Positions 13,291 through 37,948 of a stretch of DNA of 54,526 nt are shown here, one piece after another; the first letter of the stretch is position 1, and each line of letters opens with the position of its first letter. The translations under genes were made by a program, and so were the position numbers. The notes below the pieces were generated by a model. The model searched no databases. It was given only the letters and a program-made list of their open reading frames with translations, and was not told where the DNA came from. Source of the DNA: Alkalibacillus filiformis (GTDB taxonomy: Bacteria; Bacillota; Bacilli; Bacillales; Alkalibacillaceae); assembly GCF_030814115.1 (NCBI RefSeq), contig NZ_JAUSUP010000012.1, forward strand, positions 1 through 54,526, written 5' to 3'.

Positions 13291-13411
13291 TTCGCCTGAT
13301 TATGAGGTGGTTTCGCCTGATTATTTAGATTTTCGCCCGATTATCGAGGATTTCGCCTAAATATTGAGAATTTCGCTTAATTATTAATTTTTTCGCCTGA
13401 ATATTGAAATC
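13291..13411. repeat. Tandem array A: six ~20-bp units with core TTCGCCTGATTAT
   Basis: Units begin at 13291, 13312, 13332, 13352, 13372 and 13392 (steps of 21, 20, 20, 20, 20). Each opens with TTCGCC or a one-base variant, followed by an AT-rich half. The array starts 31 bases beyond the fabZ terminator (in the minus direction) and lies ahead of the lipoprotein gene. Its boundary ATTCGGCGTTCGCC is shared with array D at 37828. Confidence 0.9.
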
Positions 13412-13442
13412 TTGTATCATATAACGAACGACACATTTAAAA

Positions 13443-13469
13443 AAGAACTTTGCGCTGAGCAAAGTTCTT
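13443..13469 (-). terminator. Terminator of the fabZ unit
   Basis: An 11-bp perfect stem (aagaactttgc / gcaaagttctt) with the loop GCTGA is followed on the minus strand by TTTTTTAAA. It lies 12 bases after the fabZ stop. Confidence 0.85.
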
Positions 13470-13480
13470 CCGCTTCTTAG

Positions 13481-13918
13481 TTATTGTTGTTCTGGGTCAA
13501 CGATCGCAAACATAATTTCTGCTTCACATGCTACTTCGCCATCAACGGTTGCGACGGCTTTACCTTTTCCGACAGGGCCTTTAAGTTTAACCATTTCGAC
13601 TTCTAGCTTTAACGTGTCACCTGGTTTGACTTGGCGCTTGAAACGGCACTTATCAATGCCTGTGAACATGCCTAACTTGCCTTTGTTTTCACCTAAGTTC
13701 AGAATTGCGACAGCTCCAACTTGTGCTAAAGCTTCTACAATTAGAACACCTGGCATGACCATGTAATTTGGGAAATGACCTTGGAAAAATGGTTCGTTTG
13801 CTGTGACGTTTTTATAACCAACAGCGCGCTTTCCGTCTTCAAGCTCTGTTACTTGATCAACGAGTAAAAAAGGATAACGATGTGGGATAATCTCTTTAAT
13901 TTGTTCGATATCTAACAT
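13481..13918 (-). CDS. fabZ: 3-hydroxyacyl-[acyl-carrier-protein] dehydratase FabZ
   Basis: FabZ removes water from 3-hydroxyacyl-ACP in each round of type II fatty acid synthesis. The 145-residue hot-dog-fold protein shows [13 protein letters not shown] near residue 10 and [22 protein letters not shown] near 45. These hold the catalytic histidine and glutamate. GGAGGATC precedes the ATG at 13918. The position next to flhO/flhP and mbl matches the B. subtilis neighbourhood. It is the last gene of its unit. Confidence 0.97.
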
Positions 13919-13949
13919 AAAGATCCTCCTAGATTAGGCAATAGAAATT

Positions 13950-14279
13950 TTATTTTCCTTTTATATAATCATATAAGTTTTCCCATAATGAACGGTCAAG
14001 AACGGAACTTGGCTCATCACCTTCACCTATGACTCCATAACCGACCATCATACCAATTGCTAAAGCGGCGATACTTAAGACAATAGCTAACACAAAGCGT
14101 AACCAAACTGGAATATAACGAATGCGGCCTTTTTTTTGCTTTTTCTCTTTTTTGCGTTCTTCTTTGGCGGCTTTTCGTTTCGATTGATCTTTTGGCGTAT
14201 CTTCTTTCTCTTTAGGCTTGAACTTTTTCGCGCCTTTGAGCTTGCGCGATTTTTGATTTTGCTTATCTTCTGAAGCCAT
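13950..14279 (-). CDS. EpuA-like small membrane protein (often mislabelled RNA polymerase beta)
   Basis: The 109-residue product has a long basic, disordered N-terminus (Lys-rich to about residue 55). A single transmembrane helix follows (about 60-85, VWLRFVLAIVLSIAALAIGM), then VGYGVIGEGDEPSSVLDRSLWENLYDYI. This helix-plus-VGYGVIG pattern is that of the EpuA family (Pfam name from memory). Databases often call members a DNA-directed RNA polymerase beta subunit without basis. It lies between flhP and fabZ in the same direction. Its function is unknown. Confidence 0.8.
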   Translation of the reverse strand: MASEDKQNQKSRKLKGAKKFKPKEKEDTPKDQSKRKAAKEERKKEKKQKKGRIRYIPVWLRFVLAIVLSIAALAIGMMVGYGVIGEGDEPSSVLDRSLWENLYDYIKGK

Positions 14280-14301
14280 AATTACAACCTCGATTCTAAT
14301 G

Positions 14302-35719: not shown

Positions 35720-35824
35720 AACGAACAGCTCCTTTTTAAAATATCTCTTGAATTGTAGCGAAAACTGTCGCTATATGCAACTTATATTTTTAATATAAGC
35801 GAAATTAATTAAATGTAAGCACAC

Positions 35825-35854
35825 AAAAAGTGGTGATTTAACTCACCACTTTTT
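35825..35854. terminator. Terminator of glyA
   Basis: A 12-bp perfect stem (aaaaagtggtga / tcaccacttttt) with a 6-base loop lies 4 bases past the glyA stop. The tails allow termination in both directions. Confidence 0.9.
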
Positions 35855-35857
35855 ATA

Positions 35858-37105
35858 TTACTTATACATTGGGAACTTGTCAGCTAGCGCTTGAACGCGT
35901 GCTTTAGCTTCTTCTAATTTGCCTTCATCTTCATGATTATTTAATGTAAAAGCAATGATGGATGCAATTTCATCCATTTCTGCGTCGCCAAAGCCACGTG
36001 ATGTTACGGCTGCTGTACCGATTCGAACACCGCTTGTGACAAATGGGCTTTCAGGATCAAAGGGAATCGTGTTTTTATTCGTAGTAACACCGACTTCATC
36101 AAGTGCCGCTTCAGCTACTTTTCCTGTTAAATTTAACGGACGAACGTCTAGTAATAATAGATGGTTGTCTGTCCCATCAGATACTAAACGAATACCTTCT
36201 TTTTTCAACGATTCGCCAAGGCGTTTAGCGTTGTCGATCACCTTTTGAGAATAGTCTTTGAATGATGACTCTAGCGCTTCTTTAAACGCTACACCTTTTG
36301 CAGCGATGATATGCATGAGTGGACCACCTTGCATACCTGGGAATACGTTGCTGTCGATCTTTTTCTTAAATTCTTCTTGGCATAAAATTAAGCCACCGCG
36401 TGGACCGCGTAACGTTTTATGTGTTGTCGTCGTTACAAAATGTGCGTGTGGTACTGGGCTTTGGTGTAAGCCAGCAGCAACTAAGCCTGCGATGTGTGCC
36501 ATATCAACTAATAGGTACGCGCCTACTTCATCAGCAATTTCGCGGAACTTTTTGAAGTCGATTTCGCGTGGGTATGCGGATGCACCAGCGACGATCATTT
36601 TCGGTTCGACTTCTTTAGCTTTTGCTAACACAGCATCGTAGTCGATTGTTTCAGAGTTTTCATCAACACCATAGTCAACGACGTTGTAAAGTTTACCACT
36701 GAAATTTACCGGGCTACCGTGTGTTAAGTGGCCACCGTGGTTTAAGTTCATCCCTAAAATGGTATCGCCTGGCTTAAGTGCAGCGAAGTATACAGCCATA
36801 TTCGCTTGTGCTCCTGAGTGAGGCTGAACGTTTGCATGGTCTGCACCAAATAGTTCTTTCGCACGGTCGCGCGCTAAGTCTTCAGCAATATCGACATACT
36901 CACAACCGCCGTAATAACGACGTGAAGGATAGCCTTCAGCGTATTTATTCGTTAAAACAGAGCCTGCCGCTTCCATAACAGCTTCAGATACAAAGTTTTC
37001 AGAAGCAATGAGTTCAATTTTGTCGTGTTGACGGTTTTTCTCTTTGTTAATCGCTTCTAGCATTTCTGGGTCTACTTCGTTTAATTGGTTGTGCAAATGT
37101 GTCAT
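35858..37105 (-). CDS. glyA: Serine hydroxymethyltransferase
   Basis: GlyA is the PLP enzyme that converts serine and tetrahydrofolate to glycine and methylene-THF. The 415-residue protein has the PLP lysine in [15 protein letters not shown] near residue 230, and the N-terminal [24 protein letters not shown] precedes the ATG at 37105. It lies 60 bases downstream of ywlG, the same order as B. subtilis. I saw no purine-type riboswitch or clear PurBox in the short gap. Confidence 0.98.
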
Positions 37106-37165
37106 ATGTAAAGCCTCCCTATGTATTTATATTGAGCCAAATGGCACTTTTACTAGGTTATTAGT

Positions 37166-37714
37166 TTATTGGTAGATTGCGCGGTTTCCACCGATTAATT
37201 TCGGGCGCGTGTAAGCAAATGTTACATGAGCATCGCCGAGTGATTTTTTAGAAAAGCGCATTGGGACTGCGACGTGTTTTAAGTGCATTCCAATCAACGT
37301 GTCACCAATATCCATGCCTAAATCCGCCTTGATGTGCTCGACTAAAACAGGGTCGTCCATTTTTCCATAAGCATATGCTGCCATAGACCCTCCTGCAGCT
37401 GGGTGTGGTACGGCGCTTACTTCATCTATGCCTAGCTTTTGTTGTAACGCTCGCTCCATAACAATGGCGCGGTTTAAATGTTCGCAACATTGATAGACGA
37501 CATACACGTCCATCTCTTGTTGAAACGCTTTCAACTGTGTGTGCAACACTTCAGCAATTTCAGTACTTCCAGCTGAGCCGATTGTTTCACCTGCAATTTC
37601 ACTCGTTGAACAGCCGACGACCATTACTTGCCCGCTTTTAACGACATTAGATTGCTTCCAATCGGTCATGATCTTATGAAAGTCTTGTTGTAGCTTTTGT
37701 AATGTCATAACCAT
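37166..37714 (-). CDS. ywlG: YwlG family protein (UPF0340/TIGR01440)
   Basis: The 182-residue product matches the conserved Firmicutes YwlG family of unknown function. Recognisable blocks are VVGCSTSEIAGETIGSAGS, QCCEHLNRAIVMER, and VPHPAAGGSMAAYAYG near the middle. DTLIGMHLKHVAVPMR lies near the end, and the C-terminus is RPKLIGGNRAIYQ. It lies between rpiB and glyA as in B. subtilis. Repeat array D separates it from rpiB. The start is ATG at 37714, and an in-frame ATG at 37708 is also possible (MVMTLQKLQ). Confidence 0.93.
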   Translation of the reverse strand: MVMTLQKLQQDFHKIMTDWKQSNVVKSGQVMVVGCSTSEIAGETIGSAGSTEIAEVLHTQLKAFQQEMDVYVVYQCCEHLNRAIVMERALQQKLGIDEVSAVPHPAAGGSMAAYAYGKMDDPVLVEHIKADLGMDIGDTLIGMHLKHVAVPMRFSKKSLGDAHVTFAYTRPKLIGGNRAIYQ

Positions 37715-37827
37715 CCCTCCAATTTACGAGGAAAACATCTATTTAAAGTATAACAAAAAGACTGATAAAGGTATATGCTTTCTGCTTGGACTGTTGAAAA
37801 AGTTATCCAGGGGTGAATAATTCGGCG

Positions 37828-37948
37828 TTCGCCGGATTATGGCACCGTTTCGCCGGATTATTTTGATTTTCGCCGGAATAATGAGATTTTCGCCGGAATA
37901 TCGAAAAAATCGCCGGAATAATAAAATTTTCGCTGATAATCCATCATC
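37828..37948. repeat. Tandem array D: six ~20-bp units with core TTCGCCGGATTAT
   Basis: Units start at 37828, 37849, 37869, 37889, 37909 and 37929. The steps (21, 20, 20, 20, 20) are exactly those of array A. Units read TTCGCCGGATTAT, then TTCGCCGGAATAAT-like forms. Where array A has CGCCTGA, array D has CGCCGGA in five of six units. Both begin with ATTCGGCGTTCGCC. It lies between rpiB and ywlG, 22 bases past the rpiB terminator. Confidence 0.9.

Follow-up and report, generated by a model that had tools for sequence, protein, structure and literature searches.

Helically phased tandem arrays past gene ends in Alkalibacillus filiformis: candidate marks of the origin-side chromosome

Why do several intergenic gaps of one bacterial contig carry short, degenerate tandem arrays that repeat at about two turns of the DNA helix and lie just past the end of a gene? 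The window analysed here is the whole stretch of 54,526 nucleotides of Alkalibacillus filiformis contig NZ_JAUSUP010000012.1 (positions 1 to 54,526; assembly GCF_030814115.1, denoted G000).

Arrays of the window and their period

Four arrays, A to D, with units at steps of 20 or 21 bp, were confirmed in the window by TRF and by eye (Table 1). Each lies past a hairpin followed by a T-run, on the minus strand, as the initial annotation had described; this layout was likewise established by eye, and the gene names were recognised by eye from the translations. The strand shared by the four arrays is due to local gene direction, and the common orientation seen in the window is not a genome-wide rule: among the 29 co-directional arrays with a classifiable core in G000 and G003, the core reads along the gene direction in 17 and is opposed to it in 12. 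Nor is a single array per gap the rule. Gap B also contains what is left of a second array, two units of family F2, which is represented by approximately nine units at the corresponding place in G003 (by eye), and at other loci F1 and F2 arrays lie side by side. At the end of array D, the last core is followed by its inverted copy (TCCGGCGAACGCCGA).

Table 1. Arrays, terminator-like elements and flanking genes in the window
Feature	Position	Strand	Description
Small lipoprotein-like gene	12923-13165		neighbour of array A
Array A	13291..13407	-	some 6 units with core TCAGGCGAA or variants of it, at steps of 20-21 bp; TRF period 20
Terminator-like hairpin and T-run	13441..13473	-	after fabZ-like gene; by eye
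fabZ-like gene	13481-13918		neighbour of array A
spoIIID-like gene	20121-20378		neighbour of array B
Array B	20562..20703	-	7 units, core TTATCAGCGCTCA, family F1 (TTTATCRGCGYTCR), steps of 20 and 21 bp; TRF periods 21/41/62
Remnant of second array, gap B	20741..20772	-	two units, core TGGCGCTCG, family F2, 21-bp step; by eye
Terminator-like hairpin and T-run	20808..20840	-	after spoIIQ-like gene; by eye
spoIIQ-like gene	20863-21540		neighbour of array B
S8-protease-like gene	32711-34831		neighbour of array C
Array C	34901..35036	-	7 units, core TTAATGTCGGACGAA, family F4, steps of about 21 bp, degenerate end units; TRF 34923-35036, periods 21/42
Terminator-like hairpin and T-run	35052..35085	-	after upp-like gene; by eye
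upp-like gene	35090-35719		neighbour of array C
ywlG-like gene	37166-37714		neighbour of array D
Array D	37821..37940	-	6-7 units, core TTCCGGCGAAA, family F3, 20-bp steps, ends extended by eye; TRF 37848-37933, period 20
Terminator-like hairpin and T-run	37965..37996	-	after rpiB-like gene; by eye
rpiB-like gene	38006-38446		neighbour of array D

The periodicity was followed in a genome sample of 40 pieces of 20 kb each plus the window, with genes predicted by a simple codon-usage caller rather than taken from standard annotation. TRF thresholds varied between 45 and 70 among analyses, and tandem repeats lying 30-50% or more within predicted genes were excluded, as were gaps shorter than 60 bp. 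Nearly all non-coding repetition in this sample falls at 20-21 bp and its multiples. In the gaps outside the terminus region, 2993 exact 8-mer recurrences were counted, compared to 303 in dinucleotide shuffles, and 21 of the 22 top lags fall within 20-21, 40-42, 60-63, 80-84, 101-103 and 121-126 bp, the remaining one being a weak lag of 33; the terminus-region gaps yielded 144 recurrences versus 128 in shuffles. Outside the terminus region, the repetition thus exceeds chance, and the four arrays belong to a genome-wide class. Several contigs of the draft assembly end near an array.

The mean step of 46 Alkalibacillus arrays representing several core families has a median of 20.4 bp (range 19.7-21.1), and in a set of 28 arrays both G+C and AA/TT content vary periodically, with a period of 20.4 bp and a second harmonic of 10.25 bp. 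Arrays of this period were also detected in some ten further families of the order; one positive genome of that survey, G033, contains a simple AATTCAT-type repeat, a different kind of array. The median step and the recurrence of the period across the order support the two-turn helical spacing proposed earlier. In a small control, a 50-kb stretch of Escherichia coli, no tandem repeat with a period of at least 10 was found at score 50.

Cores, spacers and turnover among relatives

The initial annotation considered the cores to be private to each array. Instead, arrays A and D share one core family (TCAGGCGAA / TCCGGCGAA), and, allowing up to 3 mismatches, the A/D core recurs at about 23 G000 loci and the array-B core at about 25-30 (30 places, some of which, at contig ends, may be halves of one split locus). 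In the F1 family, to which array B belongs, the 13-14-bp cores are common to the loci and the spacers are mostly private. Spacer identity is 0.60 within F1 arrays versus 0.40 between them, and the cores, pinned to at most 2 mismatches, are 0.85 identical within and 0.83 between arrays. Hence, the suggested local concerted evolution applies to the F1 spacers but not to the cores, which are equally alike between arrays. When half of the F1 core was pinned, the other half carried about 0.6-1.7 bits compared to 0.05-0.5 at spacer positions (30-35 unit groups). For exact TACAGCGAAA cores at 21-bp steps in G002, neighbouring spacers of an array had an identity of 0.38 and all within-array pairs one of 0.43, where column composition predicts 0.40, in a set selected for exact matches that comprised 35 spacers from 11 arrays, three of these being copies of one cassette.

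Direct evidence for constraint on the cores is mixed. Phase structure in the mismatches from one unit to the next was detected in 38 of the 46 Alkalibacillus arrays and in 11 of 21 from the order (arrays shorter than 80 bp or with an identity of at least 0.97 were left out of this test). Neutral duplication of two-unit blocks could partly explain such phase structure. Three orthologous arrays could be aligned unit by unit. In array D, compared between G000 and G003, substitutions affect 0 of 55 core positions and 22 of 98 spacer positions; the other two, the arrays of gaps 39 and 40 (gap 39 compared between G002 and G005), show no difference between core and spacer rates, with 7/64 in cores versus 31/244 in spacers (p 0.83) for one and 6/36 versus 17/57 (p 0.22) for the other. 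The pooled difference (13/155 versus 70/399, p = 0.008) is driven by array D.

The lack of additional core constraint in two of these three arrays is compatible with a neutral or selfish satellite, a serious rival explanation of the arrays, although less likely than not. Such a satellite would originate from tandem duplications that, for mutational or structural reasons, favour a length of two helical turns; it would now and then be copied to other places, be renewed rapidly, and persist only where it is harmless, after gene ends. The local homogenisation of spacers fits this account, as does the comparison of relatives. Orthologous gaps either contain or lack arrays, which explains much of their length difference; the gap of array A, for instance, is shorter and array-free in G001 and G002. 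Gap C contains 7 units in G000, 10 in G003 and 3 in G004 (by eye), and other repeats in G001, G002 and G005, and unit-length indels separate G002 from G005. Sister species have arrays in some orthologous gaps, with an equal period and different cores; from clade to clade within one genus, the cores are wholly unlike, and several core families coexist per genome. One cassette has been copied within G002, where an array and its flank are common to three loci (212-302-bp alignments, 94-98% identity).

Given that unit number differs between relatives, slippage or unequal exchange does occur, in line with the earlier suggestion of a neutral spacer growing by slippage. However, neutral slippage alone is insufficient, because cores recur across loci beside unrelated spacers, and pure single-unit slippage was rejected as a sufficient cause. 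For a satellite that spreads by copying, the difficulty is that F1 cores are equally alike between unlinked arrays while their spacers are mostly private. Recent copying as the source of the shared F1 cores in G000 was not supported: spacer sharing between arrays (32 observed) falls within the null range (mean 18.5, maximum 44), and the shared flanks dissolve on checking. Among 40 G000 array records, eight pairs have at least 40 bp in common outside the called array, namely, one duplicate record, one pair of contig ends that are identical over 93 bases, and six cases of extra units past the TRF bounds.

Placement at gene ends and along the chromosome

Outside the terminus region of G000, arrays are present in 30 of the 216 gaps that contain a gene 3' end and in none of the 56 divergent gaps (p 0.0012, divergent versus the rest). 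Gene 3' ends are the genome-wide anchor: the placement past terminators, proposed previously, holds for all four window arrays, but in the sample, predicted terminators are only weakly more common at array-bearing 3' ends (21/38) than at array-less non-terminus ends (60/157; p = 0.067). Where a terminator is predicted, the array starts at a median of 24 bases past the T-run.

These preferences, along with the compositional oscillation, would be compatible with a local 3'-end element resembling REP/BIME, which would bend DNA, provide topoisomerase (gyrase) sites, or serve as a backup insulator absorbing supercoils or read-through, and would therefore favour convergent gaps and avoid divergent, promoter-containing ones. 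Arrays indeed occupy 9 of 33 convergent and 21 of 183 co-directional gaps; when counted per 3' end, however, convergent gaps are not clearly richer (9/66 versus 21/183), and divergent gaps do bear arrays elsewhere (4/52 in other Alkalibacillus stretches and 1/40 in G051). Furthermore, such an element predicts neither the shared 13-14-bp core nor the absence of arrays from all 132 sampled G000 terminus gaps that have a gene 3' end, and terminator insulation alone fails to explain the latter. We consider this explanation improbable. REP/BIME elements are located at gene 3' ends and are linked to gyrase; the arrays similarly follow gene 3' ends and, in G000, avoid divergent gaps, but consist of tandem phased cores, and most array families lack a palindromic unit of 20-40 bp. 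By eye, one core of G002 and G005 (GTTAAACAATC, with inverted copies) and the F3 end cap are palindromic, whereas F1-F4 units as a rule are not. PMC3733652 presents REP/BIME as small repeats dispersed between genes, with a hypothesised effect on supercoiling or termination. A function at the RNA level, in 3' UTRs or as small RNAs, is very improbable: although the arrays lie directly past gene ends and all 8 F3 cores with co-directional flanking genes read in the direction of those genes, F1 cores run with and against genes about equally often, the window arrays begin after the terminator, and neither of the two Rfam matches in the window is on an array.

Terminus exclusion was mapped in three genomes, with whole-genome maps resting on known cores only. 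In the G000 gap sample, arrays are present in 0 of 156 terminus gaps versus 30 of 272 others (p 1.2e-6), and none of the 53 F1 and F3 places falls within C1:160-1000 kb, where 16.4 would be expected under uniformity; the GC skew flips near C1:500 kb. In the sister species G001, a core is located at C1:84 kb, with no match further along that 998-kb contig among those listed, and the skew flips at about 400-450 kb; in samples of a sister species, arrays are nearly absent around the terminus. G051, a complete chromosome from another family with another core, has 29 loci at up to 2 mismatches, leaving a largest hole of 1.34 Mb (33%) centred at 2.15 Mb (p ~2.5e-4), with the skew flip between 2.02 and 2.20 Mb; at 3 mismatches, there are 35 loci and a hole of 1.21 Mb (30%). 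The G051 cores face the origin in 24 of 29 cases. In the complete-scale chromosome of G041, all 6 matches fall at just three positions (0.96, 3.61 and 3.82 Mb), too few for a hole test. Array density in G003 is not highest at the origin.

If the arrays were a satellite, the hole would reflect regional recombination, copy number or composition. Unstable gene order as its cause was not supported, the adjacencies kept in G001 being 71 of 76 in the terminus versus 24 of 27 in the window. Arrays are denser where GC3 is higher, with a rho of 0.62 across 43 pieces and of 0.47 for those outside the terminus, and GC alone may account for the hole in G000. This is unlikely for G051, where the GC of stretches inside and outside the hole overlaps (split at 1.2-2.8 Mb, chosen after inspection).

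A possible chromosome-marking system

As the best, still tentative, reading, to which we assign somewhat less than even confidence, the arrays are phased putative binding sites that mark the origin-side chromosome. This reading builds on the spacing, the F1 cores at unlinked loci, the 3'-end placement, the lineage-specific cores, and the terminus exclusion in the mapped genomes. Cores placed every two helical turns would lie on one DNA face, where a putative reader protein could bind cooperatively; its role would be to signal position, by labelling or arranging the origin-side part of the chromosome for segregation or for the timing of division, similarly to Noc. These features hint at a chromosome-marking system not described before. 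With only one conserved reader, fast co-evolution would be needed, because the cores differ between clades and several families coexist per genome. In the most novel form of this reading, which we regard as rather unlikely, a common grammar of two-turn period, slots at 3' ends and an empty terminus would be kept, and only the words would vary inside the genus.

Noc-binding sites occur in Bacillus subtilis and Staphylococcus aureus. B. subtilis has about 70 of them according to PMC4331003, and PMC5540599 describes Noc sites as single palindromes in the origin-proximal two-thirds of the chromosome, with one core consensus in two genera; near the terminus they are mostly missing. The arrays similarly occupy tens of places and leave the terminus empty (an array-free zone of about 30-33% here), but are tandem, with cores that vary between clades of one genus. 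No array core examined resembles the Noc palindrome TTTCCCGGGAAA, which, counting exact matches, occurs at only 2 G000 places. The role of Noc is not vacant, given that a Noc homologue exceeded the cut-off in each of the 5 genomes searched; a second ParB-like match, below the cut-off, and parS-like sites are also present. Chromosomal position also matters for the RefZ-binding motifs of B. subtilis, reported in PMC6657595 as five near-palindromic sites with a conserved position relative to oriC; these, however, are single sites, not arrays.

Like VNTRs and minisatellites, the arrays are tandem and degenerate and differ in copy number between relatives; unlike these, they retain a 20-21-bp period across unrelated sequences, have cores at many loci, and are excluded from the terminus. 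In plasmid centromeres and iterons, such as the 20-bp parC repeats of ParR systems, tandem sites spaced by whole turns seed a protein filament. The arrays share this spacing and the system-specific sequences but are chromosomal and located at many loci. CRISPR, with repeats of about 24-40 bp and unique spacers of similar length, does not match: the arrays have a period of 20-21, spacers of 6-11 bp, and degenerate units. Within the narrow open-access literature searched, the earlier statement that no function has been described holds: no paper title describing such arrays was found, which is weak evidence of absence, and PMC9426551 mentions intergenic tandem repeats of lake bacteria in general terms.

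Repeats of this kind may underlie the spurious repetitive proteins mentioned in the initial annotation. If the arrays are a bacterial satellite, it would be one that keeps to the helical pitch and to gene polarity and stays clear of the replication terminus, and thus a new probe of origin/terminus differences. If they are bound, chromosomes of Bacillales would have a further level of organisation, abundant and so far unnamed, the code of which shifts within a genus while geometry and distribution stay fixed, and the arrays would be a striking example of a DNA-binding protein and its genome evolving together.

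Period, cores and turnover of the arrays

The four tandem arrays (A to D) reported for the window by the initial annotation are all present, and the periodicity scan extends their spacing to the genome: two-turn lags (~20-21 bp) prevail in the sampled gaps outside the terminus region. The draft genome (G000) comprises 2,715,836 bases in 30 contigs, the window being all of contig 12 (its gene names were assigned by reading translations), and the sample was made up of the window and 40 stretches, each of 20 kb. In the non-terminus gaps, exact 8-mer recurrences numbered 2993 versus 303 in shuffles, and 21 of the 22 top lags were multiples of ~20-21 bp, the remaining lag, 33, being weak. 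Thus, a two-turn period dominates intergenic repetition in this genome.

Several core families are represented: F1 (TTTATCRGCGYTCR), F2 (TTTTGGCGCTCG), F3 (TCCGGCGAAA or TCAGGCGAAA) and F4 (AATGTCGGACGA), along with a TACCGAATA-type core in one sampled array. At the fetched G000 loci, 183 of the 188 F1 matches with at most one mismatch lie inside arrays, with steps of 19 (3), 20 (91), 21 (58) and 41 bp (3); 7-bp and 8-bp spacers tend to alternate between units, consecutive 21-bp steps accounting for 5 of 136 transitions. Across 27 F1 arrays, with no more than two mismatches allowed in the pinned cores, identity was 0.83 for cores and 0.40 for spacers between arrays, and 0.85 and 0.60, respectively, within arrays. 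When half of the F1 core was pinned, the other half was still conserved and the spacers were not. In another Alkalibacillus genome, G002, the spacers between exact TACAGCGAAA cores at 21-bp steps are about as similar as expected from composition. Of 46 Alkalibacillus arrays, 38 show phase-structured mismatch, as do 11 of 21 sampled across the order; this phasing may be partly due to neutral duplication of two-unit blocks. Direct unit-by-unit comparison of core and spacer constraint is mixed: array D, aligned between G000 and the congener G003, shows 0/55 core and 22/98 spacer substitutions, gaps 39 and 40 show no significant core/spacer difference between G002 and G005, and the pooled comparisons give p = 0.008. 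At its end, array D, like its orthologues in G003 and G004, carries a core followed by the same core inverted (CCGGCGAACGCCG), which may cap the array.

Orthologous gaps were compared across Alkalibacillus for core turnover, as the initial annotation had proposed; the genus search covered six genomes, G000 to G005. The F1 core pair is present in G000, G003 and G004, and was found in none of G001, G002 and G005. Among five genomes searched (all but G004), TACAGCGAAA and GTTAAACAATC pairs were confined to G002 and G005, and TTTCACGGATTG pairs to G001. In a genome-contig scan that may omit the window's own genome, the exact array-B core pair matched solely Alkalibacillus haloalkaliphilus records (21 stretches). 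The gap of array B (spoIIQ-spoIIID) holds arrays in G000, G003, G002 and G005 and is ambiguous in G001; that of array C (upp-protease) holds arrays in G000, G003 and G004, and by eye in G001, G002 and G005, where scan scores are just 0.54-0.60. In both gaps the cores differ according to clade, so period and slot are often kept while the sequence changes. There has also been gain and loss of arrays within the genus: other gaps bear them in some species and are short and array-free in others.

The possibility that the arrays are a satellite retains real support from changes in unit number, presence/absence turnover, local homogenisation of spacers and the mixed outcome of aligning units. The satellite reading is also supported by a cassette in G002, which took one TACAGCGAAA array to three places (L201, L202 and L203; contigs C7, C11 and C16) with 94-98% identity over 212-302 bp. 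To the eye the cassette looks MITE-like, with inverted TATAGTTTAG at its ends.

F1 arrays lie within about 130 bases of a contig end in six G000 contigs (C6, C7, C10, C14, C17 and C22), and the end of C22 matches the start of C6 over 93 identical bases; arrays therefore seem to break draft assemblies. The Bacillaceae-1 RNA of the window sits in a convergent gap alongside a GTCTCGAGACCC-type repeat; in relatives, this gap holds arrays or a bare terminator.

Coordinates of arrays and RNA elements
Feature	Location	Strand	Score
Array A	window 13291-13407		
Array B (F1)	window 20562-20703		
Array C (F4)	window 34901-35036		
Array D (F3)	window 37821-37940		
Array D end, core plus inverted copy	window 37821-37840		
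Convergent gap	window 42415-42798		
Bacillaceae-1 RNA (RF01690)	window 42593-42660	+	61.6 bits
L31-Firmicutes ribosomal protein leader (RF03156)	window 46429-46463	-	barely over gathering score
Two tandem SAM riboswitches, G002	L201:509-821	-	
TACAGCGAAA-array cassette, G002	L201:1445-1656		

Placement and the chromosome terminus

In the non-terminus gaps of G000, arrays occupy 8/95 (++), 13/88 (--), 9/33 convergent and 0/56 divergent gaps. The median distance from stop codon to array is 72.5 bases (38 gene ends); a predicted terminator was found at 21 of these 38 ends, the array then lying a median of 24 bases past it. Outside G000, avoidance of divergent gaps is looser (4/52 in other Alkalibacillus stretches; 1/40 in G051, a chromosome from another family of the order).

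GC skew and gene direction switch from plus to minus near 500 kb of G000 contig C1, which locates the terminus there. Seventeen 20-kb stretches from C1:170-990 kb contain arrays in 0/156 gaps, versus 30/272 elsewhere. In agreement, whole-genome pattern searches put all 30 F1 places (of which some may be a single locus split across contig ends) and all 23 F3 places outside C1:160-1000 kb. The 998-kb contig of G001 flips near 400-450 kb; the first of eleven sampled stretches (1-20 kb) has two arrays, and the other ten have none except one weak AT-rich match. Among the matches listed, G001's own core occurs on this contig at 84 kb only. In the single-contig, 4.06-Mb G051, the CGCTCAAAA array has 29 loci, and these leave a single 1.34-Mb hole (33%) whose midpoint, 2.15 Mb, falls at the skew flip. 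Under the loosest matching, the loci number 35 and the hole shrinks to 1.21 Mb; a reversed-pattern control gave 8 matches versus 53. Core-agnostic G051 stretches contain arrays in 5/11 cases outside 1.2-2.8 Mb versus 0/9 inside (p = 0.04, for a split picked after the stretches had been seen). The G000 hole is confounded with lower GC3; in G051, GC of the stretches overlaps. Unstable gene order as the cause of the hole was not supported. Array density does not simply peak at the origin: the two stretches flanking the parS-like sites on G003 contig 1 hold one array and none. At 24 of the 29 G051 loci, unlike in G000, cores point toward the origin (p 0.0005), possibly following gene direction.

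A local role in supercoiling or insulation would explain the placement of the arrays but leaves the terminus hole unaccounted for.

Spread across the order and a candidate reader

The order-wide sample covered 40 genomes in 39 families, with a single 20-kb stretch per genome. Among non-coding tandem repeats, 42 of 59 TRF rows (rows, not loci) have periods of 20-22, 40-43, 63 or 82, and the cores of these 42 vary. In a lag scan, 20/21 periodicity at identity of at least 0.63 was detected in 12/40 genomes, whereas five neighbouring lag pairs between them gave 2/40; setting aside one simple short-unit repeat and one positive from the window's own family leaves about ten other families. Periods of 18, 37, 47, 52 and 59 are also present in some genomes. 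Longer-period non-coding arrays (37-59 bp) were seen in four stretches from other Bacillales families (L153, L155, L158 and L173), some with GTGTCTGACACC-like palindromes.

The combination of a core common to unlinked loci, mostly private spacers and spacing in whole helical turns suggests a cooperative protein-binding array, which is typically built this way. In their distribution the arrays resemble sites for division or segregation, for example those of Noc, which are located in the origin-proximal two-thirds of the chromosome (PMC5540599) and number about 70, largely missing from the terminus (PMC4331003). Judged by sequence, the arrays are not Noc sites, and each of the 5 genomes tested carries a homologue of Noc. 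Given this architecture and Noc-like distribution, with a Noc homologue present and the arrays unlike Noc sites in sequence, we propose a lineage-specific reader: a putative protein with lineage-specific specificity that would bind the arrays and thereby mark the origin side of the chromosome.
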